Source: an uncultured Bacteroidales bacterium (GTDB taxonomy: Bacteria; Bacteroidota; Bacteroidia; Bacteroidales; Bacteroidaceae). Taken from it: DNA of 41,374 nucleotides. Of this stretch, positions 7,394-41,342 are shown piece by piece. Each line of letters begins with the position of its first letter. The first letter of the stretch is position 1. Where the stretch lies: positions 1-41,374 of the forward strand of contig CACZJU010000017.1 of NCBI GenBank assembly GCA_902781515.1, given 5' to 3'. The notes under the pieces are model-generated. The model was not told the DNA's origin. It saw only the letters and a program-made list of their open reading frames with translations, and did no database searches. A program made the position numbers and the translations under genes.

Positions 7394-7417
7394 TTAATTC
7401 TTAACTCTTAATTCTTA
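7394..7417. repeat. Heptamer tract in the ssb leader
   Basis: TTAATTC, TTAACTC, TTAATTC and a partial TTA lie in tandem with a period of exactly 7 bp, ending 5 bases before the ssb start codon. Confidence 0.75.
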
Positions 7418-7422
7418 TCAAG

Positions 7423-7818
7423 ATGTCACTGAATAAAGTAATGCTGATTGGTAACGTGGGCAATGAGCCCGAGGTTAAATACATAGAGCAAGGTGTTCCC
7501 TTGGCAAACTTCCGTCTGGCAACAAGTGAAAGAGCACGTACCCTGCAAAACGGTACACAGGTGCCAGAACGTACGGAATGGCACAATGTAGTTGCATGGC
7601 GCAGACCTGCAGAGTACATTGAGAAGTTTGTTCACAAAGGCGACAAATTGTTTATTGAGGGACAGTTGCATACCCGCAGTTACGATGACCGTAATGGTAT
7701 CACGCGCTATGTTACTGAGGTGTGGGTTGACCGCGTGGAGAATTTGTCGACACCACGACAGAATGCGCCCGAACAGCCTTCCGCTCCTGCCGCTGACACT
7801 ACACAGGCTCCCTTCTGA
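7423..7818 (+). CDS. ssb: Single-stranded DNA-binding protein
   Basis: A 131-residue SSB, short as is usual in Bacteroidetes. Residues 1-105 form the OB fold (MSLNKVMLIGNVGNEPEVKY, EWHNVVAWRRPAEYIEKFVHKGDKLFIEG). A Pro/Ala/Gln-rich linker leads to an APF end, a reduced form of the acidic DDIPF tip by which SSB recruits partner proteins. It binds ssDNA in replication, repair and recombination. It overlaps gldE by one base (TGATG), so the two are translationally coupled; ssb next to gldE is a known Bacteroidetes arrangement. Confidence 0.96.
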   Translation: MSLNKVMLIGNVGNEPEVKYIEQGVPLANFRLATSERARTLQNGTQVPERTEWHNVVAWRRPAEYIEKFVHKGDKLFIEGQLHTRSYDDRNGITRYVTEVWVDRVENLSTPRQNAPEQPSAPAADTTQAPF

Positions 7819-9125
7819 TGGACTTATCGGTTTTTCAGCAAATCGTGGTCTCAGTACCCGATCTGTCCAGCATTGTTGCCATATCTTTGGCAGTAGTGCT
7901 GTTGTTCTGTTCTGCATTTGTATCTGCCAGTGAAGTGGCATTCTTCTCTCTTACCCCTTCGGATATGAGTGATGTTGAGGAAGAGCGTCATAGTAGTGAT
8001 GAAAAGATAATCCAGTTGCGCAACGATAGTGAACGCCTCCTGGCTACAATCCTTATTTCGAACAACTTGGTGAATGTGGCTATAATCATGTTGCTCAACT
8101 ATGCCCTGATGCAAATCTTCCATTTCGGAGCACCATGGATAGAGTTCCTTTTGATGACGGTTGTCCTCACCTTCCTGTTGTTGCTCTTCGGCGAGGTTAT
8201 GCCCAAGATTTATTCGGCTCAACACCGTCTTTCATTCTGTCGTATGGCTGCTCCTGTATATTTGGTGCTCAATAAGTTGTGCTGGCCTGTTTCCTCATTA
8301 CTTGTACGTTCTAAGGTGATAACAGAGCGCATCATGGCACACGAGGCAGAGTCCTTGACAGTCGATGAATTGGAACAAGCTCTCGAACTGACCGACCAAA
8401 AGGAGATTGCCGAGGAGAGCAGTATGTTGCAAGGCATCATACGTTTCGGAGGCGAAACTGTGCGTGAGGTGATGACTCCGCGTGTGGATATGGTGGACCT
8501 TGAAATGCGCACCCCTTTCCCAGAGGTTCTGAAATGCATTGTCGAGAACAACTATTCGCGTATTCCTGTTTTCAGCGAGACGGAGGACAATATCAAAGGT
8601 GTACTCTACATCAAAGACTTGTTGCCGCATCTTACCAAGCCTGCAACCTTCCGTTGGCAGTCGCTCATACGTCCGCCATATTTTGTGCCGGAAACAAAGA
8701 TGATTGACGACCTGTTGCGCGACTTCCAGCAAAACAAGGTTCACATCGCCATCGTTGTAGACGAGTTCGGAGGCACAAGCGGTATAGTCACGATGGAGGA
8801 TATTCTGGAGGAGATAGTGGGAGAGATAGACGATGAATACGATGACGTAGAGCGTCCTTATCAGCGCCTCAATCAGAACACTTATGTATTCGAAGCCAAG
8901 TGCCCGCTCACAGATTTCGTGCGTACACTGAAACTCGACGACGACTTCTTCGAGGATGTAGAGGGCGAGGCAGACTCTTTGGCCGGTTTGCTGCTTGAGT
9001 TGAAGGGCGAGTTCCCTCGACTCCACGAGCGTCTTACTTTCCGCAACCTTACCTTTGAGGTTCTTGAGATGGATAACCGTCGTCTCGTACGTATCAAGGT
9101 CATCGTCGGCAAAAACACAGAATAA
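7818..9125 (+). CDS. gldE: GldE-type CNNM/CBS membrane protein (hemolysin C-like)
   Basis: A 435-residue protein with about four N-terminal membrane segments forming a CNNM/DUF21 domain (LLFCSAFVSASEVAFFSLTP is the typical first-helix signature). A CBS-domain pair follows around residues 200-330 (VMTPRVDMVDLE, NYSRIPVFSE, VDEFGGTSGIVTMEDILEEI), and then a CorC/HlyC transporter-associated domain. It belongs to the CorC/YtfL group linked to Mg2+ or other ion transport. The ssb-linked orthologue in gliding Bacteroidetes is GldE, needed for motility and type IX secretion. In a non-gliding gut or rumen relative a role in type IX secretion is plausible but inferred. Confidence 0.88.
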   Translation: MDLSVFQQIVVSVPDLSSIVAISLAVVLLFCSAFVSASEVAFFSLTPSDMSDVEEERHSSDEKIIQLRNDSERLLATILISNNLVNVAIIMLLNYALMQIFHFGAPWIEFLLMTVVLTFLLLLFGEVMPKIYSAQHRLSFCRMAAPVYLVLNKLCWPVSSLLVRSKVITERIMAHEAESLTVDELEQALELTDQKEIAEESSMLQGIIRFGGETVREVMTPRVDMVDLEMRTPFPEVLKCIVENNYSRIPVFSETEDNIKGVLYIKDLLPHLTKPATFRWQSLIRPPYFVPETKMIDDLLRDFQQNKVHIAIVVDEFGGTSGIVTMEDILEEIVGEIDDEYDDVERPYQRLNQNTYVFEAKCPLTDFVRTLKLDDDFFEDVEGEADSLAGLLLELKGEFPRLHERLTFRNLTFEVLEMDNRRLVRIKVIVGKNTE

Positions 9126-9145
9126 TAATAAATTAATATAGTACT

Positions 9146-12100: not shown

Positions 12101-13621
12101 TTGACAGTGAACAAGGACGCTGCCGTTACGCTGAATATGAAATACAGCGACTATACTGGTAAGACTATAGTCAACGGAGGCACACTTACTGTTCCCAACT
12201 TCTACGATGGTGGTCAGAAGAGTGCACTTGGTGCAGCCACAGCCGATAAAGGCAATCTGCAACTTAATGGCGGCACACTTGTGCTCTCGAAAGACAATAT
12301 GGGAACCGACCGCCAGATAACAGTCGCTGATACTGCCACCATCCGTGTTTCCCAGTCTAATAGTGCCCTCTCTTTGAAGGGCGCAGTCAGCGGAACGGGT
12401 TATTTGGTGAAGGATGGCGCTGGTCAGCTTAATTTTACTTATGGTGGAGCTAACAGTTTTGCAGGACTGATAGTGAAGAAGGGCATTGTGGCACAAGGCG
12501 CTTGGAACTCTACATTCGGAAAGAGTGGTTCGCCCATGTTGTTGGCAGGAGGCGAGGTACACCAGATTGATGTCAACAGCACAAGTACTGTTCCCACATT
12601 CAACCACGTCGTGACTGTTCAGGAGGGAACCACCAACAAGATTGTGGGCTCTTCGCGTGGTAAGATTAATGGTAGCGTGAAGGGTAAGGGCAACCTTACC
12701 ATAGTATCGAAATACGTGCGTTGTGACATCGGATTGAACTTTGCAAACTATGAAGGCACACTGACAGCATCTGGCAGCCAGTGGCGACTGATGAGTAACG
12801 TAACAGATATGTCGAAGGCCACACTGAAAGTTGATGCCGCTACAAATATAGCTCACTACGCCAGTGCCAGTGGCACGCAGCAGTCGGCAACGCTGAAGAT
12901 AGGTGCCATAGCCGGTACTGCTACTGATGGTGTGCTCGAAGGACAGACCACCTATCAGATAGGTTACCTGAATACAGACATGACTTTCTCTGGTCTTTTC
13001 AAGGGAACTTCTGTATCCAAGGTGGGAACGGGTAAGCTGACATTGAAGACAGTGGGCAGTACATCGCCCATAACAGTAAGTGCCGGAACTCTGGAACTAA
13101 CCAACAGCTCTTCCACTGCCATCACTACAGGTAACATTACTGTTGCCTCGAAGGCAAACATCACTGGAACTGCCGCTGTGCAGAACCTAACACTTAACAA
13201 AGGAGCCACCACAATCTGTCAGCTCAAGGCATCAAGCAATACTCGTCTCACGGTGAAGGGCAACCTCAAGCACAATGGTGACACCATTCTCGTTGTTGTT
13301 CCCACTAGTCGTCAGTTGAACGTTGGTGATGAAATCACGGTCTATAATGTCAGCGGCACACATACAGGTACATTTGTTGTTAAGGTTGACGATGGTGGCG
13401 TGGGGTATGAGTTCGACACATCAAGCCTGCTCACTGACGGAAAACTGCGCGTATCGGCAATCACAGCTATTAATGGGGTGAGAAATTCAGAAAATGAGAA
13501 AATGAGAAAGGACGTGTATGACCTGTCAGGTCGTCGTGTCCTCTCACCTCTCACCTCTCACCCCTCACCTCTAAAAAAGGGAGTTTACATCAAGAACGGT
13601 AAAAAGGTATATAATAAATAA
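9146..13621 (+). CDS. Rhamnogalacturonan lyase (PL11) fused to beta-strand repeats and a secretion tail
   Basis: A 1491-residue secreted protein. Residues 1-21 are a signal peptide. Residues ~22-640 are a family 11 polysaccharide lyase: LLQPLDRGVVAV start, fibronectin-like segment, then an eight-bladed propeller with calcium loops (DTDGDGEYDA at 159-168, DVDGDGIVDY, DVDGDGRDEM). PL11 enzymes cut rhamnogalacturonan I of pectin by beta-elimination. Residues ~920-1400 hold glycine/threonine-rich strands such as GTGYLVKDGAGQLNFT and GTGKLTLKTVGS, typical of autotransporter-associated beta-strand repeats and likely a beta-helix. The end reads VYDLSGRRV...KKGVYIKNGKKV, a type IX secretion-like tail. 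Two tandem-repeat tracts (13482-13505, 13543-13570) sit in frame just before and inside that tail. The gene begins 20 bp after gldE with no clear promoter. GH2 follows 3 bp later. Confidence 0.92.
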   Translation: MKNVRLLVAASVMLLTMTMSAQRLLQPLDRGVVAVNRSGSTIRSVTSSGGTGNLISWRKLAQEPEGTTYNVYKRAAGSGEYTKMNSTPLKKTNYAPSSLNNNTEYAVTAISPEGVEGEKSAPFLYKTQPWPNVWLNIDFDNTVIPRNDYRTKFCWPMDTDGDGEYDAVVVDRLYAGAASGEEDTENTATTTHKIQAYRFTGELLWTVDMGPNVNICAGQNDMVVAWDINCDGRCEVMVRSSDGTRFWDKQNETWGKYAMGSDKADVDGDGIVDYRTQTVRNRPFYISVIDGLTGEEIAASELKYNEVTDGSDSYTRTNRADYMSDGYAAMDGHFCICYLDGIHPSLVMECLDRDNNKTHHNYVFTWDYDWNGSLASNWHHSHTWSRNDKRPWPAEFHMLRVADVDGDGRDEMIQGGYSVNPLTGWFASPGIGHGDRFVLSDIDPDRPGLEVYAIQQSALLGQLLYDACTAERIKEWYLPSVYDVGRGTCLDMDASHKGYEILSYADEFVYDCKGEKTGQTRSGSMFEGCWWDGDLQREWLNSPGGDGWGTNLMVSKVLGDRLAEFSQEASWATHAATGTRPAFMGDIIGDWREEVLLAKQDDNGCTGLVGYTTAMSTNYSIYCLQQDPHYRGDCTTRGYYQHPNTGFYLGGGMPMPPLPPVFEADVRNQMASGKSVMFDLQGDTGATFNVNGEAPTVIYMMNPRGHNYTFSGTGTTGDGQLIKSMQGTATFNCDLGHTGLNLISEGTLCVNGEIAGPVELRARGTLSGNATLKDTITFEGALNYEGCRLRLGSDGFGVVTSKKSIVVPGNVYIEVGVATEIATSIPPHSYYYSGCLKVEGDLTFKGTNYITVNNTTKGFEGEYVIAECTGALTCTVSKLQTRGLEGINYDFEVRDNKLLLIIHDTRAPQQDVVWTGSESKVWDYKAQNFQTTEQTSFVAGDVVVFNDQAAKKTVTVNEMMVTNGVIFDSGTYTFSGDGGISGTGDLTVNKDAAVTLNMKYSDYTGKTIVNGGTLTVPNFYDGGQKSALGAATADKGNLQLNGGTLVLSKDNMGTDRQITVADTATIRVSQSNSALSLKGAVSGTGYLVKDGAGQLNFTYGGANSFAGLIVKKGIVAQGAWNSTFGKSGSPMLLAGGEVHQIDVNSTSTVPTFNHVVTVQEGTTNKIVGSSRGKINGSVKGKGNLTIVSKYVRCDIGLNFANYEGTLTASGSQWRLMSNVTDMSKATLKVDAATNIAHYASASGTQQSATLKIGAIAGTATDGVLEGQTTYQIGYLNTDMTFSGLFKGTSVSKVGTGKLTLKTVGSTSPITVSAGTLELTNSSSTAITTGNITVASKANITGTAAVQNLTLNKGATTICQLKASSNTRLTVKGNLKHNGDTILVVVPTSRQLNVGDEITVYNVSGTHTGTFVVKVDDGGVGYEFDTSSLLTDGKLRVSAITAINGVRNSENEKMRKDVYDLSGRRVLSPLTSHPSPLKKGVYIKNGKKVYNK
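13482..13505. repeat. 8-bp tract before the PL11 sorting tail
   Basis: GAAATTCA, GAAAATGA and GAAAATGA in tandem encode part of RNSENEKMR. The surrounding 29 bases (13481-13509) are identical to 40177-40205 in the HEIGH-motif protein gene, in the same reading frame and at the same place relative to the C-terminal tail. Confidence 0.8.
13543..13570. repeat. Heptamer tract inside the PL11 sorting tail
   Basis: Four tandem heptamers, CTCACCT, CTCACCT, CTCACCC, CTCACCT, encode the linker SPLTSHPSP between GRRV and KKGVYI of the C-terminal domain. The tract does not break the frame. Confidence 0.85.
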
Positions 13622-13624
13622 GGT

Positions 13625-16600
13625 ATGAGAAGGAGCCTTTTCTTCGTTTTCGTATTGTTTGTCATAGGCGGGCAGACGGCGTACGCCATAGAGCGACAGA
13701 AAATATCCTTCAATGCCGACTGGCGACTGAAGGTGGGCGATTTTGCAGAAGCTGCACAGCCTGATTTCGACGATTCAGGGTGGAAACAAGTGACTCTGCC
13801 TTATGCTTTCAATGGTGTTGAGGCTTTCCGCAAGGATATCGTTGACCTGACGGATACTGTTTGTTGGTACCGGAAAGAGTTGAGAGTTGAGAGTTTAGAG
13901 TTTAAAGACAAGAAATATTTCATTGAATTTGAGGGCGCACGACAGGGAGCCGATGTTTATCTCAATGGACATAAGGTGGGATTCTCGGATAATGGAGTCA
14001 TGGCTTTCGGCTTCGACCTGACACCTTATATAAAAGAAGGAAAAAACGTGCTGGCGGTACGTTGCGACAACAGTTGGACCTATCGCGACCGCGTGCTTAA
14101 TAGCCGCTATCAGTGGAACGATAAGAACTTCAACGCCAACTATGGCGGTCTGCCCAAGAACGTGTGGTTGCATATCACTGACAAACTCTATCAGACACTA
14201 CCACTTTACTCGAACCTCGGCACAACGGGCACTTATGTCTATGCCACAGACTTCGATATAGCTGGTCACAAAGCCGTGATTCATGCCGAGAGCGAGGTAA
14301 AGAACGAGGACACGAAGGAACGTTCGTTCACATTCTTTGCTAAGGTGCTCGACATTGACGGCAAGGAAGTTGCCCATCTTGATGGTGAGCGTGTTACCTT
14401 ACAGCCTGGCGAGACGCGCATCGTGTCTGTTTCTAAGGAGGTCAGTGGACTTCATTTCTGGTCGTGGGGCTACGGCTATCTCTACACGGTGAAGACGCTG
14501 TTGAAGGCTGACGATGGTTCGAAAATCGACGATGTCATCACACGCACGGGCTTCCGCAAGACGAGTTTTGGCGAGGGCAAGATATGGCTCAACGATCGTG
14601 TGATGATGGTTCACGGCTATGCTCAGCGCACATCGAACGAGTGGCCTGGTGTGGGGCTTAGTGTTCCCGCTTGGCTCAGCGACTATTCGAATGGACTGAT
14701 GGTGGAATCAGGTGGTAATATGGTTCGTTGGATGCACGTTACTCCTTGGAAACAGGACATTGAGTCGTGCGACCGCGTGGGTTTGCCACAGGCTATGCCA
14801 GCAGGCGACTCGGAGAAGGATGTGGAGGGAGCACGTTGGGAGCAGCGCAAGGCCTTGATGCGCGATGCCATCATCTACAATCGCAACAATCCCTCCATTC
14901 TGTTCTACGAGAGTGGCAACGAAAGTATCAGTCGCGAACACATGCTGGAAATGAAAGCCATCCGCGACGAGATTGACCCACATGGAGGCCGTGCCATCGG
15001 CAGTCGCGAGATGTTGGACATCAACGAAGCTGAATATGGCGGCGAGATGCTCTATATCAACAAATCACATAAACACCCGATGTGGGCGATGGAGTATTGT
15101 CGCGACGAGGGGCTACGCAAATATTGGGATGCGTGGAGCTATCCCTACCATAAGGAAGGCGAAGGTCCTCTCTATCGAGGTAAGCCTGCTACGGAGTACA
15201 ACCACAATATGGACGAGTTCGCCATAGAGATGGTGCGCCGTTGGTACGACTATTGGTTGGAGCGTCCGGGCACAGGCACTCGTGTTTCCTCGGGTGGCGT
15301 GAAGATTGTGTTCAGCGATACCAATACTCATCATCGTGGCGAATCGAACTATCGAACGAGTGGAGTGGTGGATGCTATGCGAATCCCCAAGGATGCATTC
15401 TTCGCCCATCAGGTGATGTGGGATGGTTGGGTAGAGCCGGAGGAGGCGAGGACATACATCATTGGGCATTGGAACTATGACAATTCAAAATTGACAATTG
15501 ACAAATCGCAATTAAAGAAGCCAGTGTATGTGGTATCTACGGCAGACAGCGTAGAGCTGTTCCTGAATGGTCGCTCGCTTGGCTATGGCAGGCAGAGCTG
15601 TCGTTATCTGTTTACCTTCGAGAATGTGAAATTCGAACCTGGAACGCTGGAGGCAGTCGGTTCCGATGGCAGTCGCTATAAATTGGAGACTGTAGGCGAG
15701 CCATATCAATTGAAGCTCACAGCCATTACTAATCCACAGGGCACGAAGGCCGATGGGGCAGATATGGTGCTCGTACAAGTTGAGGTGGTTGACAAAAAAG
15801 GTCGCCGATGTCCTTTGGATGACCGTATGATTAACTTTGAACTCTCTGGCGAAGGAGAATGGATTGGTGGCATCGCTACACGCAACAATCAGCAATTGCA
15901 ACGACCAGATACAGGCAATCGCGAAGGTTTGCTTGACGCTGCAGCCACGAAGAATGTTTCTGACAACTATGTTGGTGCCATGTCTTTACCAGTGGAGTGT
16001 GGCATCAACCGTGTGCTTGTCCGCACCACGACTAAAGCTGGCAAGATTTGCCTCAAGGCCACTGCCAAAGGCATGAAAAGTGAAAAGTTAATACTGAAAA
16101 GTGAAAAGGGAGAAGCAAAAGATAATTACCATTTGCCATTTGCCATTTACCATTTACCATTTAGTCGTGGTGAAACACCGCTCACGCCCTCTTTCACGGA
16201 ACAGGCTCGTGGCATAGAGATCCTTTCTGCAAAAGCAGGTTACGACAGCGAGCACGCCTCCCATAGCTTCGATGATAACGAACTTTCCGAGTGGAAAAAC
16301 GACGGCAGACTTTCAACGGCTTGGATTACCTACAAGTTGGCTGAGAGGTCTATCGTGGATGATATATGCCTGAAGTTAACTGGATGGCGTTTGCGTAGCT
16401 ATCCGCTTGATATATATGCTGGCGACCAGCTCATTTGGAGCGGCGAGACGGAGCGCAGTCTCGGTTATGTTCACCTCAAGCCCATGCATAGTGTAGCGAC
16501 TGATGAAATCACCATCCGCTTGCGTGGTGCAGGCAAGGACGAAGATGCCTTTGGTGGTATTACAGAGGTGACAGAACCTGCTGCTGGCGAGCTCGACCTT

Positions 16601-19114: not shown

Positions 19115-20212
19115 TTATTTCGAACGGTAGATGGCGATTTCGCCGCTGCCGTAGCAGATGCGGTGGTCGGCGTCGTAGATGCAGCCGAACTGTCCAGGGG
19201 CGATGCCTTGTATTGGTTCGTCGGAGTGGATGTGGTAGCCCTCGTCGTCGAGAGTGATGGTGCCCTGCATGAAATGGTCGACGTGACGAATCTTGAAGCT
19301 GATGTCCCAAGATTGAGGGCCTTCCTCATACCTCCTACCTCCTACCTCCCACGGATTTTGGGTGATGAAGTGCATGTCGGCCAGACGGAAGTCGTGACCA
19401 TACTGCAGTTGGGTGTCCCATCCGTGTGCCACGAAGATGATGTTCTTCTTCACGTTCTTTTTCACTACGAACCATGGACCGCCGCTGAGACCGAGTCCCT
19501 TGCGCTGTCCGATGGTGTGGAACCAGAAGCCACGATGCTTGCCTACGACCTTGCCTGTCTCAATGTCTATTACGCGCCCTTCCTTCTCACCCATGAACTT
19601 GCGGAGGAAGTCGTTGTAGTCGATCTTGCCAAGGAAGCAGATGCCCTGACTATCCTTGCGGCGAGCGGAGGGCAGACCGGCACGGATGGCAATGTCGCGC
19701 ACTTGCTCCTTCAGCAGATGTCCGATGGGGAATATGGTGTGGCTGAGCTGTTCGTAGGTGAGCTGTGCGAGGAAGTCGGTCTGGTCCTTCACTGGGTCTT
19801 TGGCTGTGCCGAGCCACACCAGTCCGTCGTGTTCCACACGGGTGGCGTAGTGACCAGTGGCTACGAGGTCGTAGTTCTTGCCGACAAGTTCCTCGAAGGC
19901 TCCGAACTTTATGAATCGGTTGCACATGACATCGGGGTTGGGCGTGAGTCCCTGCCGTACGCGTTCTATGGCATAGCCCACCACACGCTCCCAGTATTCC
20001 TTCTGCAGGTCTGTGACTTCCAGCCGCAAGCCATACTTGCGTGCCGTTGCCTGCGACAGTTCGATGTCCTCCTCGGCGGAGCACGATGAATCCTCGCCCT
20101 CCATACCTATTTTAATATAGTGGAGGTCGGGCTTGTAGCCTTGCTCGCACAACTGGTGAACCACCACTGCGGAGTCCACTCCTCCCGATATCAGTACTGC
20201 TATATTCTCCAT
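19115..20212 (-). CDS. mnmA: tRNA-specific 2-thiouridylase
   Basis: A 365-residue MnmA, which thiolates U34 of Lys, Glu and Gln tRNAs with sulfur from the IscS/Tus relay. The PP-loop SGGVDS is at 9-14. [13 protein letters not shown] carries the first catalytic Cys, and [15 protein letters not shown] the second. [18 protein letters not shown] is the conserved middle, and a beta-barrel domain ends the protein. A tandem heptamer tract (19325-19352) encodes [11 protein letters not shown] in the barrel. It is convergent with the SPFH operon and has a promoter inside the terminator zone of the next gene upstream. Confidence 0.94.
19325..19352. repeat. In-frame heptamer tract in mnmA
   Basis: CTCATAC, CTCCTAC, CTCCTAC and CTCCCAC in tandem (plus-strand reading), in phase at 7 bp, within the C-terminal barrel of MnmA. 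Confidence 0.8.
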
Positions 20213-29244: not shown

Positions 29245-29286
29245 AGTTTAGAGTTGAGAGTTTAGAGTTGAGAGTTGAGAGTTTAG
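29245..29286. repeat. Six-copy heptamer tract between radC and the SufT-like gene
   Basis: AGTTTAG, AGTTGAG, AGTTTAG, AGTTGAG, AGTTGAG, AGTTTAG in exact phase, filling nearly all of the gap and ending 4 bases before the ATG. Confidence 0.9.
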
Positions 29287-29290
29287 AGAT

Positions 29291-31103: not shown

Positions 31104-31878
31104 ACAAGTCCTCTGGCTTATTCGTTTTCTTCAGTTCTGTTAGCAACTGGGCATAGCGTTCTGCTACAGCCTTTGCAAAGCGTGCTCCCTTTTCGGCTGT
31201 CGCTGGATGAGGATTACCGATTCCCGTATCGTCAGTCACCAAGTTCCAATGACGAGGCAGCCATGCTGTCTTCTGACGGAGGGAAGGAAGGGCAAAGGGG
31301 TGTGAATCACCATTTCCGGCTAAATCCATGCGCACCAGTTCTGGGTGATAGTGAAGCATAACGGAGGTTTCCAGTTCGTCGGCATGGTCACCCGGCTGGT
31401 CGAAGTATTCCTTGGCTGGACATACGGTGAACCACTCACTTGAAAGGATGAGCATATCGGGATAATCGACTGCCAAGTCGCGGATGAAGCCCTTGAACGA
31501 GTTGCCGCCGTGTCCGTTCACGATGAGCAACTTGCGCAGCCCTTGGTGATAGATGCTTTCCACTATGTCGCGTAGGATTGTTTCCTGAGTACGTTGACGA
31601 TAGTGGATGCAGAACTGCAGGTCGCGCTGCCCAGGGTTCTGTGCTCCCATCATCACAGGCGGCAACACCATCGCCTTCACTTTGCTCTGTTCCCATGCCA
31701 GTCGAGCCGCATCTACAGCCACATCGTGCGACAGAATGCAGTCTGTCAGGTAGGGTAGATGCTGATTGTGTGGCTCTGTTGCCCCCCAGGGCAATATTGC
31801 AATGTCATACTTCTTTTCGCCCACCATTCCGTAGGTCGATGCTGCCAAATCCACAGCCATTTCCTTTTTCTCTTCCAT
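31093..31878 (-). CDS. Creatininase-family amidohydrolase
   Basis: A 261-residue protein with the creatininase metal motifs: ILPWGATEPHNQHLPY (Glu and His), NGHGGNSFKG, and DHADELETSVMLHYHPE. The family includes creatininase, formamide hydrolases of flavin synthesis (ArfB-like) and the mycofactocin protein MftE. The true substrate cannot be told here. It is co-transcribed with tcdA. A heptamer tract begins exactly at its start codon. Confidence 0.9.
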   Translation of the reverse strand: MEEKKEMAVDLAASTYGMVGEKKYDIAILPWGATEPHNQHLPYLTDCILSHDVAVDAARLAWEQSKVKAMVLPPVMMGAQNPGQRDLQFCIHYRQRTQETILRDIVESIYHQGLRKLLIVNGHGGNSFKGFIRDLAVDYPDMLILSSEWFTVCPAKEYFDQPGDHADELETSVMLHYHPELVRMDLAGNGDSHPFALPSLRQKTAWLPRHWNLVTDDTGIGNPHPATAEKGARFAKAVAERYAQLLTELKKTNKPEDLYER

Positions 31879-31898
31879 TCTTAATTCTTAATTCTTAA
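31878..31898. repeat. Heptamer tract upstream of the creatininase gene
   Basis: TTCTTAA three times in tandem (plus-strand reading) plus a decayed fourth, directly upstream of the minus-strand start codon. This is the position a ribosome would cover. Confidence 0.75.
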
Positions 31899-31909
31899 TT
31901 CTTTCTCCG

Positions 31910-31938: not shown

Positions 31939-33506
31939 TAATTATTTTTTACGTATTCCGCTGCCGCTTCTGCACAACGCTCTCCATCCACACCGGCACT
32001 CACTATACCGCCTGCATATCCAGCTCCCTCGCCACAAGGGAAAAGCCCTTGCAGACGGATGTGTTGCAGGGTTTCGTTGTCGCGTAGGATGCGGACGGGA
32101 CTGCTCGTGCGTGTTTCCACACCAATGACGGTAGCCTCGTTGGTCAGGAATCCGTGTTTCTGTCTGCCCCATGTTTTGAAAGCCTCCTGCAGACGGTGGC
32201 GTATGGGTTCGGGCATCCAGAAGTGGAGGGGCGAGCTGATGAGACCTGGAGCATACGATGAATCGGGCAGGTCGTAGCTGAGGCGGTTGTTCACGAAATC
32301 AGCCATACGTTGCGATGGGGCAGTCTGCTTCATGTTGCCCTGTTGCCAGCAGGTGCGTTCCAGCTCCTCCTGAAAGCTCATCATCTTCAGCGCATCATCG
32401 TCTGATACGTCTTCCGGACGTATTTCCACCACCATACCGCTGTTGCTCCAACGCCCATTGCGGCCTGAAGGACTCATACCGTTCACCACAATCTGTTCTG
32501 GTCCGCTGGCAGCAGGAACTACGAAGCCGCCCGGACACATACAGAAACTGTACACGCCGCGTCCGTCAACCTGTTGCACCATGCTGTATTCGGCAGCCGG
32601 CAGATAGTCGCCGCGTCCTCGTTTGTTGTGGTATTGTATCTGGTCGATGAGCTGTGCAGGGTGTTCCAATCGCACGCCCACTGCCAGTCCCTTTGCTTCT
32701 ATCTCTACATCATTGTCATATAGCCAGCGGTACACATCGCGAGCCGAGTGTCCCGTTGCCAGTATCACCGGCCCCCTGAACTCCCTTCCATCGGCACACA
32801 CAATGCCCTCCACATTTGACATTTGGCATTTGACATTTGACATGAGCAACGCCGTCATCCGCGTTTCAAAGTGCACTTCGCCTCCACATCTGATGATGGT
32901 CTCGCGCATGTTCTCGATGACGCGCGGGAGTTTGTCCGTACCAATGTGGGGATGGGCATCGCTTAGGATGCTCGGACTGGCACCATGCTGACAAAATACG
33001 CGCAGAATCTTCTCGCCATTTCCGCGTTTCTTGCTTCTGGTGAATAGTTTTCCATCGGAGTAAGCCCCTGCACCTCCCTCACCGAAAGCGTAGTTACTTT
33101 CTGGGTCAACCTTTTGTTCAGGACGTATTCGGGCAAGGTCCTTCTTGCGGTCGCGCACGTTCTTACCTCTTTCCACCACAATGGGGCGCAGTCCCAGTTC
33201 TATCAGTCGCAGGGCAGCAAACAGTCCACCCGGACCAGCTCCCACAACAATCACCTGCGGTCTGTCGCTCACATCGTGATACTCCACTGGCTCGAATTCT
33301 TCCACGGGTGGCTGTTCGTTTATGAACACCCTGACGGTCAGGTTCACAAAGACCTCCCTCTGCCGGGCATCAATGCTTCGCTTCAGTGTTCTCACGCAGG
33401 TAATAGTCCTCTCGTCCCAACCCTGCTCTCGAGCCACGTATCGCCGTATCGACTGTTCATTGTAACCGTCCCTCGGCGTCACCCTCAGTTGCAACTCCTT
33501 TATCAT
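31938..33506 (-). CDS. FAD-dependent oxidoreductase (FixC/HI0933-like dehydrogenase)
   Basis: A 522-residue flavoprotein. Residues 1-80 are a small N-terminal domain with repeated Arg and Lys residues. The FAD-binding Rossmann motif is VIVVGAGPGGLFAA (G89-G94), then VVERG, and FGEGGAGAYSDGKLFTRSKK is a family signature. VILATGHSARDVYRWL is the second dinucleotide-side strand, and LFPCGEGAGYAGGI the C-terminal FAD contact. Substrate and partners are unknown. An in-frame heptamer tract encodes NVKCQMSNV between domains (32813-32840). The start at 33506 is 16 bp past the radA stop, so the pair is probably one transcript. Longer upstream frames overlap radA and lack family similarity. Confidence 0.88.
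   Translation of the reverse strand: MIKELQLRVTPRDGYNEQSIRRYVAREQGWDERTITCVRTLKRSIDARQREVFVNLTVRVFINEQPPVEEFEPVEYHDVSDRPQVIVVGAGPGGLFAALRLIELGLRPIVVERGKNVRDRKKDLARIRPEQKVDPESNYAFGEGGAGAYSDGKLFTRSKKRGNGEKILRVFCQHGASPSILSDAHPHIGTDKLPRVIENMRETIIRCGGEVHFETRMTALLMSNVKCQMSNVEGIVCADGREFRGPVILATGHSARDVYRWLYDNDVEIEAKGLAVGVRLEHPAQLIDQIQYHNKRGRGDYLPAAEYSMVQQVDGRGVYSFCMCPGGFVVPAASGPEQIVVNGMSPSGRNGRWSNSGMVVEIRPEDVSDDDALKMMSFQEELERTCWQQGNMKQTAPSQRMADFVNNRLSYDLPDSSYAPGLISSPLHFWMPEPIRHRLQEAFKTWGRQKHGFLTNEATVIGVETRTSSPVRILRDNETLQHIRLQGLFPCGEGAGYAGGIVSAGVDGERCAEAAAEYVKNN
32813..32840. repeat. In-frame heptamer tract in the FAD oxidoreductase gene
   Basis: CATTTGA, CATTTGG, CATTTGA, CATTTGA in tandem (plus-strand reading), encoding NVKCQMSNV on the minus strand, between RMTALLMS and GIVCADGREF. 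Confidence 0.9.
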
Positions 33507-33522: not shown

Positions 33523-34959
33523 TTAGCCGAAAAGGGCGCGGACGGCCTCGGCGACGCGACGGACGGGGACGAGTTCGATAGCAAGTTTCTTCTGGTCAAT
33601 GCCCTTGAGGCCTTGGGCAGGGACGAGCATACGGCGGAAACCGAGTTTCTCGGCTTCGGCGATACGCTGTTCCAGTCGGGCAACGGGACGAATCTCGCCA
33701 CTCAGTCCCACCTCTCCACACATACAGGTATCAGGTTCGATGGCTGCGTCCACGTTGCTGGAGAGTACGGCGGCAATGACGCTGAGGTCCATAGCAGGGT
33801 CTGTTACGCGCAGACCGCCCGCAATGTTCAGGAATACATCCTTCTGCGCCAGTTTGAAGCCGACGCGCTTCTCCAATACAGCCAGTAACATACCCAAGCG
33901 ACGATTGTCGAAACCTGTAGCAGAGCGCTGTGGGGTTCCGTAGGCGGCTGTAGAGACGAGAGCCTGAGTCTCGATGAGCAGAGGACGCACACCCTCTACC
34001 GCAGCGCAGATGGCAATGCCACTCAGCCCCTCGCGACCTTCCGTCAGCAGCAGTTCGCTGGGATTGCTGACCTGTCGCAATCCACCTTGTAACATCTCGT
34101 AAATACCAAGTTCCGAGGTACTTCCGAAGCGGTTCTTCTGTGCTCGCAGAATGCGGTACATATAGTGTTGGTCGCCCTCGAACTGCAGAACACAATCGAC
34201 GATGTGTTCCAGCACTTTGGGACCTGCCAGCGTGCCCTCCTTGGTGATGTGGCCGATGAGTATGACACATGGTACGACCCCTCTCCCGTCCTCCCCCGAG
34301 GGGAAGGATTTCTTTGATTTGACATACCTGAGGAGCGAGGCGGCACACTCGCGAATCTGGCTGAGACTGCCAGCCGATGATTCCACAGTCTCTGTGGATA
34401 TTGTTTGTATGGAGTCTATGACAACAAGGTCGGGCTGTTCGGCTTCAATGTGTTCGTATATGGCTTCGAGCGAGGTTTCACAGAGGATTAAGAGGTTGGA
34501 GGTGAGAGGTGAGAGGTGAGAAGATTCTTGTAGGCGGTCGGCACGAAGCTTGATTTGGCGGGCGCTTTCTTCTCCGCTGATGTACAGCACTTTGATGTTG
34601 TCCTGTAGGCGCAACACGGTTTGCAGTACGAGGGTACTCTTGCCGACACCTGGTTCACCACCAAGCAAGACAAGGCTGCCCTTCACCAGTCCGCCGCCAA
34701 GGACGCGGTTAAGCTCCTGGTCGCCCATATCAATACGCACCTCGGCATCCGCCTCAATATCGCCCACTGCAATCGGACGGTTCTCTTGTCCCTCGCCCAA
34801 CGTCATTTTGAATTTTGAATTTTGAATTTTAGACTGGCTTCCAGCCACCTTAAATTCCTTCATCGTGTTCCAACGACCACAGTTGGGGCATTTACCCATC
34901 CATTTCGTTGTTTCCTGTCCACATTCCTCGCAGACATACATTACCTTGTCTTTTGCCAT
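33523..34959 (-). CDS. radA: DNA repair protein RadA/Sms
   Basis: A 478-residue RadA. The N-terminal zinc finger is CEECG...CPNCG, the Walker A GGEPGVGKSTL. The RadA-specific KNRFGS motif sits in KNRFGSTSELG, and a Lon-like C-terminal domain ends the protein. RadA is a hexameric helicase that drives branch migration in recombination. The start at 34959 (MAKDKVMYVCEECG) is preferred to 34977. It is longer than E. coli RadA, and two heptamer tracts account for part of this: one encodes QSKIQNSKFKM after the zinc finger (34806-34826), the other encodes SSHLSPLTSN in the ATPase domain (34492-34519). Confidence 0.95.
   Translation of the reverse strand: MAKDKVMYVCEECGQETTKWMGKCPNCGRWNTMKEFKVAGSQSKIQNSKFKMTLGEGQENRPIAVGDIEADAEVRIDMGDQELNRVLGGGLVKGSLVLLGGEPGVGKSTLVLQTVLRLQDNIKVLYISGEESARQIKLRADRLQESSHLSPLTSNLLILCETSLEAIYEHIEAEQPDLVVIDSIQTISTETVESSAGSLSQIRECAASLLRYVKSKKSFPSGEDGRGVVPCVILIGHITKEGTLAGPKVLEHIVDCVLQFEGDQHYMYRILRAQKNRFGSTSELGIYEMLQGGLRQVSNPSELLLTEGREGLSGIAICAAVEGVRPLLIETQALVSTAAYGTPQRSATGFDNRRLGMLLAVLEKRVGFKLAQKDVFLNIAGGLRVTDPAMDLSVIAAVLSSNVDAAIEPDTCMCGEVGLSGEIRPVARLEQRIAEAEKLGFRRMLVPAQGLKGIDQKKLAIELVPVRRVAEAVRALFG
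34492..34519. repeat. In-frame heptamer tract 1 in radA
   Basis: GAGGTTG and three copies of GAGGTGA in phase (plus-strand reading). It encodes a Ser/Pro/Thr-rich loop in the RecA-like core, next to LLILCETSLEAI. Confidence 0.85.
34806..34826. repeat. In-frame heptamer tract 2 in radA
   Basis: TTTTGAA three times in tandem (plus-strand reading) and a partial fourth, encoding KIQNSKFKM in the linker between zinc finger and ATPase core. Confidence 0.85.
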
Positions 34960-34983: not shown

Positions 34984-35018
34984 TCTGAAAATTGAAAATT
35001 GAAAGTTGAAATTTGAAA
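34984..35018. repeat. Heptamer tract in the radA-U32 divergent gap
   Basis: TCTGAAA, ATTGAAA, ATTGAAA, GTTGAAA, TTTGAAA in phase. The tract supplies the GTTG that serves as -33 box of the U32 promoter. Confidence 0.85.
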
Positions 35019-35035
35019 ATATGTTAGTATCTTTG
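35005..35035 (+). promoter_or_regulatory. Promoter of the U32 gene, nearly leaderless
   Basis: GTTG (35005-35008), a 19-bp gap and TATCTTTG (35028-35035). The -7 box ends 7 bases before the ATG at 35043, so the transcript would start at or within a few bases of the start codon. Confidence 0.55.
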
Positions 35036-35042: not shown

Positions 35043-36905
35043 ATGAGAGAAATAGAGTTGCTGGCGCCGGCTAAGGACTTGGCGACGGGCATTGAAGCTA
35101 TTAAGCATGGAGCAGATGCCGTGTACATCGGAGCAAGTCGCTTCGGAGCGCGTGCTGCAGCTGGCAATTCTGTTGACGACATTCGTCAGCTTGTGGACTT
35201 TGCCCACCCCTATGGAGTTAAGGTCTATGTCACTCTGAATACCATCATCTTCGATAGCGAACTATCAGATGTTCAACGACTTGTCGAGCAGCTTGCAGAT
35301 GTTGGCGTTGATGCCATCATCGTTCAGGATATGGCATTGCTCAATTCAAAATTAAAAATTAAAAAGGCAAAATTGAGGCTGCACGCGAGCACTCAGATGG
35401 ACAACAGAACTGCGGAGAAGGTGGCGTGGCTTAGGGACTTGGGCTTCCGTCAGGTGGTGCTGGCACGTGAACTTACCCTCGACGAGATTCGCGATATACA
35501 CGAGCGGGTGCCCGATGTCAGGCTGGAAGTGTTTGTGCATGGTGCCATCTGTGTGTCGTACAACGGTCAGTGCTACGCCTCGCAACACCTGTTCAAGCGT
35601 TCTGCCAACAGAGGCGAGTGTGCCCAGTTCTGTCGTATGCCGTTCGATTTGATAGAGGTTAGAGGTGATGGGGCAGAGGAGAAAGTGCTGATGCGACAGA
35701 AGCATCTGCTCTCGTTGCGCGACATGAATCGTAGCAACGAATTGGAGGCTCTTCTTGATGCCGGAGCTTCGAGCCTGAAGATTGAGGGACGACTGAAAGA
35801 TGTGGCTTACGTGAAGAACGTGGTGGCATACTACAGGCAGCGTCTCGATGAGATTTTCAGTCGTCGGAAAGAGTACTGCCGCAGTTCGTTGGGTAAGGAG
35901 ACCGTAACCTTTAGTCCTAATTTAGCAAAATCTTTTAACCGTCTGGCTACTAATTACTTTTTGAATGGTAGAACTCGTGATATGGCGAACATATATACAC
36001 CCAAAAGTATGGGTGAGCCTGTTGGCGAGGACACTGAATTACACAATGGGGACGGGCTGTGCTACATCAACGAGGAAGGGCAGTTGGAAGGATTCCGCGT
36101 GAATCGTGTCGAGGGCAAAAAGATATATCTCAGCAATGGTAATATCCTACCTCTCACTTCTTGCTCCTCTTCGCTACGCAAGCGCTTCGCGATTACTCAC
36201 CTCTCACTCTACAGGAACTACGACCATCAGTTCGAGCAGCAACTGGCAAAGCCTACAGCCACTCGGAAGGTGAGTGTAAGGTGGCACTTGCGCGATGTCG
36301 AGGACGGTTTTGTGCTACGCCTGATTCGTGAGGATGGGGTAGAGGTGGAGCAACATTTCCCCTACACCCACGAGGTGGCACGTTCGTCCCAACGGGAGCA
36401 GATAGAACGCCAGCTCTCGCGTCTTGGCGACACTCCCTACGAGTCCGTGGAAGTAGAGGTGGAGATGACGGACAACTGGTTCATCCCGGGCAGCGTCCTT
36501 GCCGACTGGCGCAGAAAGACTGTTGAACGGATGATGGACGCTAAACCACAAAAGGAAGAGAGCGAAGGTCCTGCACCTGTAGCCAACTTTAGTCCTTTGC
36601 CTTTTGCCATTAGTCACATTCAATACCTCGGCAATGTGGCGAACAAGGTGGCGCGACAGTTCTACCTCGACCACGGAGCCACGAAGGTTGATTGGGCAAT
36701 GGAGGTGGAACATCCCAAGGGCGAGGAACATTTGCTGATGACCTGCCGCTACTGCATCCGATACGAGCTTGGAATGTGCAACAAATTGAAGATGGAAGAT
36801 GGAAAATTGAATAGTGGCACTTTATTCCTACGGCTGGCTGATGGAAGAAGGTTCCGTCTGCACTTCGATTGTAAGAATTGTCAAATGAGGGTTTACTCGG
36901 TTTAA
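35043..36905 (+). CDS. U32-family protein, probably RlhA-like RNA hydroxylation factor
   Basis: A 620-residue protein. The U32 barrel starts MREIELLAPAKDLATGIEAI and includes GADAVYIGASRFGAR and the signature VFVHGAICVSYNGQCYASQH with SANRGECAQFCRMPF, whose four Cys may bind an iron-sulfur cluster. A long C-terminal part ends with CRYCIRYELGMC and DCKNCQMRVYS. Long U32 proteins with a DUF3656-type extension include RlhA, which hydroxylates C2501 of 23S rRNA; shorter ones (TrhP) act on tRNA U34. The old peptidase label is doubtful. Three repeat inserts lie in frame: 35344-35371, 36147-36210 (with the 29-bp element) and 36785-36812. Confidence 0.85.
   Translation: MREIELLAPAKDLATGIEAIKHGADAVYIGASRFGARAAAGNSVDDIRQLVDFAHPYGVKVYVTLNTIIFDSELSDVQRLVEQLADVGVDAIIVQDMALLNSKLKIKKAKLRLHASTQMDNRTAEKVAWLRDLGFRQVVLARELTLDEIRDIHERVPDVRLEVFVHGAICVSYNGQCYASQHLFKRSANRGECAQFCRMPFDLIEVRGDGAEEKVLMRQKHLLSLRDMNRSNELEALLDAGASSLKIEGRLKDVAYVKNVVAYYRQRLDEIFSRRKEYCRSSLGKETVTFSPNLAKSFNRLATNYFLNGRTRDMANIYTPKSMGEPVGEDTELHNGDGLCYINEEGQLEGFRVNRVEGKKIYLSNGNILPLTSCSSSLRKRFAITHLSLYRNYDHQFEQQLAKPTATRKVSVRWHLRDVEDGFVLRLIREDGVEVEQHFPYTHEVARSSQREQIERQLSRLGDTPYESVEVEVEMTDNWFIPGSVLADWRRKTVERMMDAKPQKEESEGPAPVANFSPLPFAISHIQYLGNVANKVARQFYLDHGATKVDWAMEVEHPKGEEHLLMTCRYCIRYELGMCNKLKMEDGKLNSGTLFLRLADGRRFRLHFDCKNCQMRVYSV
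35344..35371. repeat. In-frame heptamer tract 1 in the U32 gene
   Basis: ATTCAAA, ATTAAAA, ATTAAAA and a decayed AGGCAAA in phase. They encode NSKLKIKKAK inside the barrel, just before LRLHASTQMDN. Confidence 0.8.
36169..36197. repeat. 29-bp dispersed element, copy 2 (in frame in the U32 gene)
   Basis: CTTCGCTACGCAAGCG followed by CTTCGCGATTACT, 27/29 identical to copy 1 at 31910-31938. It is bordered on both sides by CTCACTT/CTCACCT-type repeats and encodes SLRKRFAIT within LTSCSSSLRKRFAITHLSL, a stretch with no look of U32 sequence. Confidence 0.85.
36785..36812. repeat. In-frame heptamer tract 2 in the U32 gene
   Basis: ATTGAAG, ATGGAAG, ATGGAAA, ATTGAAT in phase, encoding KLKMEDGKLN directly after the conserved GMCN Cys motif. 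Confidence 0.8.
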
Positions 36906-36932: not shown

Positions 36933-37875
36933 GAAGAAATTTTTCACTTTTCACTATTCACTATTACCTTTCTTGCTTCTCATTGTCAGTTGCAAGCCAT
37001 CGCCAGTGGGGGAGATTGAGGGGACGGAGCGCATGTGGGACGTGGACTACAACTTTGTTCTCTCTGGCGACAGTCTGGTGCTGCAGGAGGACCGTCCTAT
37101 GCACCTGCAGATAGTGCCTGACGAAGCCGACTCGTTTGTGGTGTACAAGAACGACCACCTTGTGGTGGCACAGATAGAGGTGATTCCAGAGGACTCGATA
37201 GACAGCGTGTGGGTGAAGGTGGCTCGCGACCAGTTGACGCAGGGCTGGGTGCACGAATCGGCACTGATGGAAGCCGTGGTGCCCGACGATCCCATTTCGC
37301 AAGGCATACACCTGTTTAGCGACAGTCACGTCATAGCCGCCGTAGCCCTGTTCATGGTGGCACTCGTAGCCTGGCTGGTGCGTCGCGGACTGAAACGGCG
37401 TTTCCACATCGTCCACATCGACGACATCGCCTCGCCCTATCCCATGCTCCTGTGCCTATGTTTTGCCGCAGCAACGGTGCTCTACACATCGATACAAATC
37501 TTCGTACCGCAGGTGTGGGCAGAGTTCTATTTCAATCCCACGCTCAACCCCTTCGGACAGCCTACGCTGCTCTGTCTGTTCCTTGCCTTGGCATGGGTGA
37601 TAGTGATTCTCACCATTGCTTCGCTCGACGACATCCGCCGTTCGCTCACAGCCACCGAGGCCGTGCTCTACACCCTCTCGCTCTTGGCCTTTCTGGCTGT
37701 CATATACATATTCTTTTCCATTACCACGCAATATCTCTTGGGCTATTTCCTGTGGATGGCGTATGCTGCCATTGCGGTATGGCAATATTGGCGCCGCCAC
37801 CGTCCGCGTTACCGTTGTGCCCACTGCGGTGCTCCGCTTCACGACCGTTCCTCGTGTCCCAAGTGCGGACTGTAA
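36931..37875 (+). CDS. Membrane lipoprotein with SH3-like and zinc-ribbon parts
   Basis: A 314-residue protein not assigned to a named family. It begins with a lipoprotein signal (lipobox LIVSC at residues 17-21). A ~100-residue periplasmic segment (GDSLVLQEDRPM, VKVARDQLTQGWVHESAL) resembles a bacterial SH3-like domain; WVHES is a typical SH3b ending. Four or so membrane helices follow between ~130 and 285. The C-terminus is a zinc ribbon (CAHCG...CPKCG). The signal-peptide codons for FTFHYSLLPF contain a heptamer tract (36943-36963). The start ATG overlaps an 8-bp tandem tract. Role unknown. Confidence 0.8.
   Translation: MKKFFTFHYSLLPFLLLIVSCKPSPVGEIEGTERMWDVDYNFVLSGDSLVLQEDRPMHLQIVPDEADSFVVYKNDHLVVAQIEVIPEDSIDSVWVKVARDQLTQGWVHESALMEAVVPDDPISQGIHLFSDSHVIAAVALFMVALVAWLVRRGLKRRFHIVHIDDIASPYPMLLCLCFAAATVLYTSIQIFVPQVWAEFYFNPTLNPFGQPTLLCLFLALAWVIVILTIASLDDIRRSLTATEAVLYTLSLLAFLAVIYIFFSITTQYLLGYFLWMAYAAIAVWQYWRRHRPRYRCAHCGAPLHDRSSCPKCGL
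36943..36963. repeat. Heptamer tract in a lipoprotein signal peptide
   Basis: TTCACTT, TTCACTA, TTCACTA in phase, encoding most of FHYSLL in the h-region of the signal peptide. Confidence 0.75.
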
Positions 37876-37914
37876 ACCATAAACCGTAAACCGTAAACTG
37901 TAAACCATAAACAT
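37873..37914. repeat. Six-copy heptamer tract abutting a start codon
   Basis: TAAACCA, TAAACCG, TAAACCG, TAAACTG, TAAACCA, TAAACAT: exact phase from the stop codon of the membrane lipoprotein gene to the base before the ATG at 37915. It is the entire gap. Confidence 0.95.
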
Positions 37915-40411: not shown

Positions 40412-41245
40412 ATGAAAAAGACATTAAAAACATTGAGCCTCTTGTTAGGCTTCGCAGTATGCATTGCGGGAAGCATGACGCTCGCATCATGTGGTGACGA
40501 CGATGACGAGGTTACCATTCCAAACTCTTCTGACAACATTTCCACCTCTGACCTTGTTGGTACATGGAACATAGCCGGACAAGACGGTCATTCCACATGG
40601 GTTTTCACCAACGACAAACTGACTATTACCAACTGGGGTACTCAGGAATTCGACGGTCCCTACACGGTCAATGGTGACAAGATTACCTACAGAACAAAGT
40701 ATCGGCAATACAATCCGCAGACCCAACAACAGGAAGAAGTAGAGGGTGACATCACGGTCAAGATTGGTCTCATCTGCGACAAGGCAGTGCTTGTGCTGAA
40801 GAGTGAGGTGCAGAACGAGCAGGGCACCGACTACGAGTTCTCTTACGTCATGTTCAAGGAGGGCAAGAACATTACTGCTACCGCCAACGACATTCAGGGA
40901 ACATGGGATTGGTACATGCATGGCGACCAAACCTACGTCAGAACACGTTTGACCATCAGCGGCAACACGTTCGACATGATTATCACTCCTTGGGGACAAC
41001 GCTACACAGGTACCTTCACCTATGCCAATGGATATATTACGCTTAACACCGAGCATGGCTACACCACACGTGAGGAAGGCTCTGGCGACGGCTTTGGCGA
41101 AGGTGACTTAGACCCAGAAACCCTTGAGGGCACATGGAAGAATCTCAACAACTGGTATATCTGGGAAAAGATGCCATTCGTTGCCAACGGCAATGAAGCC
41201 TACGGCATTGTAGCCAATCTGTCCGCTCTTTTCTACAAGAAGTAA
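40412..41245 (+). CDS. Lipoprotein with lipocalin-like repeats
   Basis: A 277-residue lipoprotein: signal MKKTLKTLSLLLGFAVCIAG, lipobox LASC at about 27, then GDDDDE. GxW-type repeat starts are at LVGTWNIAGQDG (~49), IQGTWDWYMHG (~163) and LEGTWKNLNNW (~243). The first two open lipocalin-like barrels (STWVFTNDKLTI; RLTISGNTFDMIITPWG). The third is short and may close the second. The design is shared with the protein at 20308-21465, so the two are probably paralogues. It is likely exported to the outer membrane. Ligand and role are unknown. Own promoter and strong terminator make it a single-gene unit. Confidence 0.8.
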   Translation: MKKTLKTLSLLLGFAVCIAGSMTLASCGDDDDEVTIPNSSDNISTSDLVGTWNIAGQDGHSTWVFTNDKLTITNWGTQEFDGPYTVNGDKITYRTKYRQYNPQTQQQEEVEGDITVKIGLICDKAVLVLKSEVQNEQGTDYEFSYVMFKEGKNITATANDIQGTWDWYMHGDQTYVRTRLTISGNTFDMIITPWGQRYTGTFTYANGYITLNTEHGYTTREEGSGDGFGEGDLDPETLEGTWKNLNNWYIWEKMPFVANGNEAYGIVANLSALFYKK

Positions 41246-41281
41246 AAGATTAGACGATAATCCAAATACTTATCGCAAAGC

Positions 41282-41319
41282 AAAAGCCCCCGCGCCACAT
41301 CGGCACGAGGGCTTTTTTT
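41282..41319 (+). terminator. Terminator of the lipocalin-like lipoprotein gene
   Basis: AAAAGCCC (41282-41289) pairs with GGGCTTTT (41109+200 to 41116+200, that is 41309-41316), with further inner pairs up to 41296/41302, and is followed by a run of T to 41319. It starts 37 bases after the stop. Confidence 0.88.
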
Positions 41320-41321
41320 GG

Positions 41322-41342
41322 TATACAGTATACAGTATACAG
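41322..41342. repeat. Three TATACAG heptamers
   Basis: Three perfect tandem copies of TATACAG just after the terminator. The rest of the window to 41374 shows no gene. Confidence 0.9.

Follow-up and report, generated by a model that had tools for sequence, protein, structure and literature searches.

Heptamer tandem arrays are scattered over a 41,374-nucleotide stretch of DNA (hereafter the window) from an uncultured Bacteroidales bacterium, namely contig CACZJU010000017.1 (C17) of the draft genome GCA_902781515.1 (G000; 2,458,429 bases, 46 contigs). These arrays share a 7-bp period and a preferred size of about 32 bp; they stand beside a TAnnTTTG box in a fifth of the non-genic cases, occupy signal-peptide-like segments and loops of proteins, and have at some orthologous sites of related species counterparts built from other words. 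The reading that we favour, with a probability of roughly 0.42, is that they are 7-periodic patches of this preferred size, which enter their sites whole and may be copied from other arrays. The carriers of such patches are probably Prevotella relatives of ruminant guts.

Period-7 arrays were called with Tandem Repeats Finder (TRF), whose rows overlap in part, and open reading frames (ORFs) with a simple longest-ORF script; signal peptides were judged by eye, and so was the identity of arrays in the aligned RadA and PyrK sequences. A word class pools a heptamer with its rotations on both strands, so that 1172 classes are possible. The host-genome sample comprised 841,374 bases including the window (34% of the genome), and the 12-species sample 2,288,352 bases.

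The original prediction listed 20 tracts of period 7 in the window, and TRF recovers an array within 5 bp of the start of each of them. The window has 17 exact lag-7 runs of at least 10 matches, whereas 20 dinucleotide shuffles averaged 0.1. The other lags from 1 to 30 give 0–3 such runs each, except lag 21 (5), a multiple of 7, and lag 23 (9), which matches two 23-bp TRF arrays. A period histogram, proposed as a check, peaks at 7 in the host-genome sample, contrary to the refuting condition of no such peak: with at least three exact copies, period 7 accounts for 51 arrays and periods 4, 8 and 9 for 10, 6 and 3, respectively, with 0–1 at periods 5, 6 and 10–40, while period 3 reaches 500 because three copies amount to only 9 bp. 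At a fixed threshold of 12 matches, lag 7 scores 90, followed by lags 14 (34), 23 (29), 21 (25) and 8 (22), all others being at 9 or below. Period 7 tops periods 4–13 in 11 of the 12 species, the twelfth (G012) having no array at all. Lag 7 also leads lags 1–30 in 42 loci (842,882 bases) from named, mostly ruminant, metagenome-assembled records that hold relatives of an RGL11-family (Pfam) protein of the window, with 31 tracts of at least 12 matches; the runners-up are lags 21 (25), 22 (25) and 14 (22), a smaller lead than that of the host, which has 90. Spread beyond these samples, including the refuting condition of conservation in distant genera, was gauged by one AATT pattern count per genome, rather than by site comparison. 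Of 139 genomes of the genus, host included, 110 contain the pattern (AATTN3)3AATT, the overlapping hits ranging from 0 to 343 per genome; of 247 genomes from the phylum, host included, 103 do so, with a maximum of 62 outside the host. The reversed control outnumbers the forward pattern in some genomes (104 versus 71 in G115, 100 versus 48 in G140); since it is itself a 7-spaced TTAA pattern, such counts gauge a single word family, and a zero does not denote an array-free genome.

With regard to size, 317 strong period-7 arrays of any word from the 12 species have a median length of 32 bp and a median of 4.57 copies. The median stays at 31–33 bp in each of six contexts, and 156 of the 317 arrays measure 30–34 bp. 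This class makes up 28/36 and 13/16 of the promoter arrays, 31/48 of the mid-gene, 13/23 of the N-terminal and 11/15 of the C-terminal ones, and just 60/179 of the other non-genic arrays, so that about 32 bp is a strong preference and not a rule. In the AATT family this length corresponds to five 4-bp boxes with four 3-bp spacers. In the host, 25 AATT chains with exact 7-bp steps have five boxes and none has six. Across the 12 species, 186 chains have 2 boxes, 47 have 3, 42 have 4, 49 have 5, 5 have 6 and 1 has 9; the 49 five-box chains thus compare with only 6 longer ones. The 67 period-8 arrays of the 12 species have a median of 34 bp, which hints, albeit weakly, that total length is held rather than copy number.

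The words themselves vary, although less freely than had been stated. The claim that each tract has a different word does not hold, since the 20 tracts fall into 16 classes, four of which are used twice (7394 with 31877, 13540 with 34491, 13876 with 29245, and 23432 with 34986). In the host-genome sample, 198 TRF heptamer rows fall into 61 of the 1172 classes, led by AAAATTG (32), AAAAATT (13), AAGAATT (13), AATTGAC (11) and AATTATC (10), and some words recur at unrelated loci. Most leading classes consist of AATT plus three bases (the AATTNNN family), and pairs of AATT are found 264 times at spacing 7, compared with 10–20 times at spacings 4–6 and 8–13. Among 342 arrays from 10 species (at most 60 each), the same word is shared by 6.7% of pairs within species versus 2.7% between species, the former value exceeding the maximum of 200 label permutations (4.2%); words are thus partly species-specific, in the manner of dialects. 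The earlier argument from a shared period without a shared sequence to a generating process therefore survives in part: period 7 is common and words vary, also across congeners, but they form families and partial dialects. A preferred size, anchoring at promoters, signal peptides and sites reused with other words were not part of that account. As to the order of units, neighbours are no more alike than other units in 151 irregular arrays of all words. In 38 irregular AATT arrays of five boxes, adjacent units seemed to avoid each other (P 0.0019, post hoc); this avoidance is absent in the 151 arrays, and was not retained. All that we keep from unit order is that the signature of slippage is absent.

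Placement is far from random around TAnnTTTG, which we take to be the Bacteroidetes −7 element. For 327 non-genic arrays of the 12 species, and with expectations drawn from random intergenic stretches, this box lies 4–7 bp from the array end 56 times (6.2 expected), 8–11 bp away 24 times (6.7 expected) and 16–19 bp away never (7.2 expected). It is present at 2–12 bp in 66 of the 327, on both sides in 21 of these. A TTG placed 22–23 bp 5′ of AT-rich TAnnTTTG boxes is seen in about 35% of 444 boxes without an array versus about 13% of 79 with one. On host contig C1, around 34955-35030 (in L003), a 21-bp inverted repeat (TTCATGCCACAAAGGTACAAA..TTTGTACCTTTGTGGCATGAA) flanks an array and thereby provides mirrored −7-type boxes.

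Within genes, 30 of 122 arrays start no more than 75 nt from the ORF start. The pyrimidine-rich strand is the sense strand in 28 of these 30 N-terminal arrays, and about 22 of them resemble signal peptides by eye, such as MKRLLLFFLIVNCQLSIVNSLYAQ. A few loci had raised the idea that leader arrays pair with signal-peptide arrays in a hairpin; it was dropped, as leader arrays show no purine bias (85/153 pooled).

Arrays also lie in frame within conserved genes. The RGL11-family protein of the window carries a CCTCTCA array in its C-terminal domain, which is found in none of the 41 relatives (out of 42 loci) that could be aligned at the C terminus. At the array the window protein exceeds L057 by about 8 residues (GRRV-LSPLTSHPSPLKK-GVY), while many other relatives end in a C-terminal form that is different but similar in length. 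L080 carries an array of CAATGGT units, checked in the DNA, at another place of the protein. In RadA, whose closest solved chain is 5lkm, the array at 34491 has a same-length counterpart in L100 (G072), with about 75% nucleotide identity, and the array at 34805 is also seen in L098, L108 and L100, the last having a second, different array appended to it. In other species the loop of the array at 34491 is occupied by different arrays or by palindrome-like, GC-rich inserts. Such inserts, of the CCCCTCTCCCCGCTCC..GGGGGAGAG type, were noticed in radA of L099, L101, L102 and L105, in loops that hold heptamer arrays elsewhere. PyrK was detected in 127 of the 139 genus genomes at E 1e-40, and 30 sequences were compared, the row of G108 being without DNA. 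Three of them, from the host, G115 and G074, have loop arrays of three unrelated words, and array-bearing loops exceed the commonest length by 2 to 3 residues. Steps of 7 bp would break the frame in PyrK, RadA and tRNA_Me_trans, and in-frame arrays therefore speak for arrival in one step.

Comparison of orthologous sites indicates turnover of the words. The host stretch C2:26-40 kb was matched in all 13 near relatives. At one of its promoters, the host and G121 have TTTTTAA, G043, G108 and G139 have TTTCAAC, and G047 has CAATTAT, while the −7 box of G001, G072, G128, G136 and G141 is without an array. One signal peptide (C2:31623) is encoded by CAATTTT units in the host and by CAACTTT-type units in G043 and G121; an octamer array stands there instead in G001, G027 and G074, and none in G128. 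In a stop–start gap at C2:30328, the array is absent from all eight relatives compared, the host being 40–50 bp longer, and none of the eight array-less stretches contains AATT. Alignment with orthologues, by which each tract might have proved an insertion, gave a divided answer: insertion at the C-terminal domain loop with respect to L057 and at C2:30328, and near-equal-length replacement at PyrK and at the signal peptide C2:31623. More broadly, an anchored orthologous site was obtained for 23 of 160 host arrays, giving 71 site–species pairs. A heptamer array is present in 21 of them (10/33 in genes, 11/38 between genes) and an octamer array only in 7; random controls have a heptamer array in 45/1501 cases in genes and 26/188 between genes. 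The consensus word differs in 18 of the 21 occupied pairs and is the same in 3.

Finer resolution comes from the close pair G134 and G140, whose pyrK loci align over 3.76 kb with 96.7% identity. Two G134 stretches contain 13 period-7 arrays, of which 10 were comparable with G140. Copy number is unchanged in six (with a 1-bp gap at the array end in two of them), and four differ, none by a clean 7 bp. Beside one of the six stable arrays, a promoter-side repeat stretch differs between the two genomes by an equal-length block substitution, and the block of G140 agrees at 35 of 36 bases with an array located about 5 kb off in that genome, a distance that is 9 kb in G134. The two loci involved also have a 40-bp core and neighbouring sequence in common. 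In G134, and also in G140, two promoter regions (L257:8500-8740 and 17480-17800) share a 40-bp core (TCTGCAAAGAGGATGATTTTGAACAATTTTTAGATTCTTA) between arrays. In a comparison of L257:4693-4832 with L300, one intergenic slot is filled by an octamer array in one of the two species and by a heptamer-like one in the other, with a further difference of about 68 bp nearby.

The 20 tracts of the window illustrate this range of settings. A 24-bp TTAATTC array (7394..7417, +) stops 5 bp 5′ of the ATG of the ORF at 7423. The CCTCTCA array mentioned above measures 33 bp (13540..13572, +; gene 9146-13621), and the adjoining GH2 gene (13625-16678) contains four in-frame arrays, namely, AGAGTTG (13876..13902, +), TGACAAT (15478..15504, +), TGAAAAG (16074..16108, +) and, 17 bp past the latter, TTACCAT/CCATTTG (16126..16163, +). 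Two more are in frame in a tRNA methyl transferase gene (19320..19349, −; gene 19115-20212, Pfam tRNA_Me_trans), presumably of the MnmA type, and in a gene with an acyltransferase domain (22763..22793, −; gene 22259-23437). The end of the latter and the facing end of ORF 23455-24432 are overlapped by a TTTCAAT array (23432..23466, −). A 44-bp AGTTGAG array (29245..29288, +) has a stop at 29241 on one side and an ATG at 29291 on the other, and an ATTCTTA array (31877..31903, −) adjoins the start codon of ORF 31093-31878. The gene for a flavin adenine dinucleotide (FAD)-dependent protein has a 32-bp in-frame ACATTTG array (32812..32843, −), and radA has both AGAGGTG (34491..34521, −) and ATTTTGA (34805..34830, −) in frame. 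In the divergent gap between radA and a U32 peptidase gene, a TGAAAAT array (34986..35020, +) lies 7 bp 5′ of the −7-type box TATCTTTG (35028..35035, +), which is followed by an ATG at 35043; the idea of a conserved array 5′ of radA was set aside, that region being not syntenic in the congeners compared. The U32 peptidase gene contains an in-frame AATTAAA array (35343..35365, +) and a GAAGATG array (36788..36804, +), which is weak with only 2.4 copies by TRF. The window's example of an array-coded putative signal peptide is in ORF 36931-37875, where a TTCACTA array (36943..36965, +) encodes part of an apparent lipoprotein signal peptide (MKKFFTFHYSLLPFLLLIVSC). The stop of this ORF at 37875 is spanned by a GTAAACC array (37872..37912, +) that ends 2 bp 5′ of the ATG at 37915, and a GTATACA array (41321..41343, +) lies 3′ of ORF 40412-41245, close to the window end.

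Repeats of other periods were also noticed in the window. Octamer arrays occur at 13479-13509, 36900-36929 and 40172-40205 (TGAGAAAA and others), two of the three in C-terminal protein parts, where they encode ENEKM-type stretches. The two 23-bp-unit arrays (27119-27224 and 27274-27380) have different units. Arrays of 11-bp period lie at 22104-22152 and 22227-22264, about 75 bp apart, with roughly inverse-complementary units (AAAGGGGAGTT, TATAACTCCCT), and another, of TATGAGGTGTC, at 1066-1107, at and past the stop of ORF 116-1069. No Rfam family reached the gathering threshold in the window.

How might such arrays arise? Taken together, the preferred size, the in-frame arrays, the words foreign to empty sites, the turnover and the dialects argue against stepwise slippage and for patches drawn in one step from a pool. 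A new array would then arrive as a ready-made patch, copied from an array elsewhere in the genome by short-patch templated repair, template switching or ectopic conversion; it would insert between genes or overwrite a tolerant stretch, and might later be overwritten by another patch. Survivors would be expected wherever the sequence is free to vary over some 10 residues or some 32 bp, that is, 5′ of a −7 box, in leaders, signal-peptide cores, loops and C-terminal linkers. Species dialects, in-frame arrays in conserved genes, and a period and size without a fixed word would be the outcome. Several observations weigh against this reading. Neither a copying event nor an enzyme was seen in the material analysed, and a larger dispersed carrier was rejected, array flanks being unlike across host loci (6 similar pairs among 160 arrays). 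The two loci of the block change in the close pair also share neighbouring sequence, so that ordinary paralogous conversion explains this single case. Related words such as AAAATTG and AAAGTTG could come from mutation and local homogenisation, and the RadA arrays, keeping related words at about 75% identity, indicate that turnover is not always fast. PyrK loops are longer without a clear array in G141, G027, G047 and G078. As for size, 67 of the 179 other non-genic arrays exceed 34 bp. Among the 71 site–species pairs, 43 have neither a heptamer nor an octamer array; a stricter in-gene control (compared stretch of at least 36 bp) gives 45/786, the intergenic excess (11/38 versus 26/188) is modest, and some heptamer class is common to 5 of the 21 occupied pairs. 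Moreover, these 21 all lie on one host stretch (C2, 7-72 kb), with a few arrays counted at two sites, and hence are not independent.

Stepwise slipped-strand mispairing at each site, by polymerases prone to 7-bp slips, would leave words local and make size a balance of gain and loss. It would fit the dominance of period 7 with many words, the heptanucleotide excess already in print for many bacteria, the existence of long arrays (up to 143 bp in the host genome) and one changed array of the close pair (L257:19621), which could include a lost unit. We nevertheless consider it unlikely, given the sharp drop past five AATT boxes, the similar medians in all contexts, the in-frame arrays in conserved genes, the lack of a clean 7-bp change in any of the 10 arrays compared between G134 and G140, the missing similarity gradient between neighbouring units and the recurrence of words at unrelated loci. 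Somewhat harder still to credit is that the arrays are binding sites or promoter parts, with a DNA-binding protein or RNA polymerase reading 7-bp phased boxes 5′ of the −7 box, and size and place being maintained under selection. The 80 TAnnTTTG boxes at 4–11 bp, where about 13 were expected, their absence at 16–19 bp, the 66 arrays with a nearby box (21 of them flanked on both sides) and the usual TTG at −23/−22 mostly missing from array promoters all favour such a role. However, such a box is missing beside 261 of the 327 non-genic arrays, the word at one promoter depends on the species and five species do without an array there, and arrays in coding sequence cannot be accounted for in this way: they are similar in median size without promoters, and only 2 boxes were found at 5–9 bp around 61 host in-gene arrays.

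Rickettsia palindromic elements are short, palindromic sequences with a family sequence, kept in frame inside conserved genes. The heptamer arrays resemble them in the latter respect, but share only a period and a preferred size, with 61 word classes in the host-genome sample. A dedicated mobile element or writer enzyme inserting arrays of about 32 nt in a comparable manner would explain the preferred size, the in-frame loop insertions and the patchy distribution among congeners (the AATT pattern in 110 of 139 genomes, from 0 to 343 hits); as neither a common sequence nor a carrier sequence was found, we regard this as improbable. Just as improbable, in our estimation, is a dedicated DNA-writing activity, which would deposit arrays of period 7 and a length of about 32 nt at promoters, in leaders and in coding stretches that tolerate them, and would re-write these arrays in words particular to the species. 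If it existed, part of the promoter DNA of the genus and some of its signal peptides would be machine-made repeats.

Heptamer repeats have been described before. An excess of heptanucleotides among long simple sequence repeats, for which slippage linked to polymerase contacts was proposed, is attributed to Mrazek et al. 2007 (as cited in PMC4692102 and PMC4679880), and the host likewise has 7-nt tandem units far above chance. The present arrays are set apart from that work, as cited, by their preferred length near 32 bp, by the different words at reused sites, by their presence in signal-peptide-like N termini and by their position a few bp from −7 boxes. The GGGNATC and GGGGAYT heptamers of Xanthomonas and Nostoc are, according to the parts of PMC4692102 consulted, genome-wide, with four units preferred, heterogeneous units and inverted pairs; the four-unit preference was linked to G-quadruplexes, and only 7–8% of the GGGNATC-type repeats lie between divergent ORFs. 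Host-type arrays similarly favour about four units, but their leading words AAAATTG, AAGAATT, AATTATC and AAAAATT have no G-tract of three or more and G-rich words are rare. Since the leading words are AT-rich, G-quadruplexes cannot set the size, and another cause is needed. Also in contrast with what is given there, divergent promoters are used, and words mostly differ at occupied orthologous sites. TAACTGA repeats are reported in the consulted parts of PMC4679880 from Beggiatoaceae, Cyanobacteria and five Bacteroidetes, 5′ of start codons and in some cases inside ORFs, there mainly towards the ends of the protein, with two to six copies in BOGUAY. The host heptamers share these two locations, yet fall into 61 classes instead of a single word, and the TAACTGA necklace class (AACTGAT) is absent from these 61. 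A limited keyword search of the open-licence literature turned up no account of such arrays from Prevotella, at TAnnTTTG boxes or within signal peptides. As far as these sources go, the heptamer excess and the four-unit preference are already in print, and promoter anchoring, signal peptides and word turnover were not found in this limited search.

The cause of the heptamer excess noted in 2007 is still a hypothesis, and AT-rich arrays of similar size bear on it. With 139 genomes ranging from 0 to 343 pattern hits, and orthologous sites with differing words, the birth, size control and re-writing of the arrays become testable. Arrays of this kind in proteins should not be mistaken for conserved domains. 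Finally, these data suggest that promoters and signal peptides can be built from low-complexity repeats.

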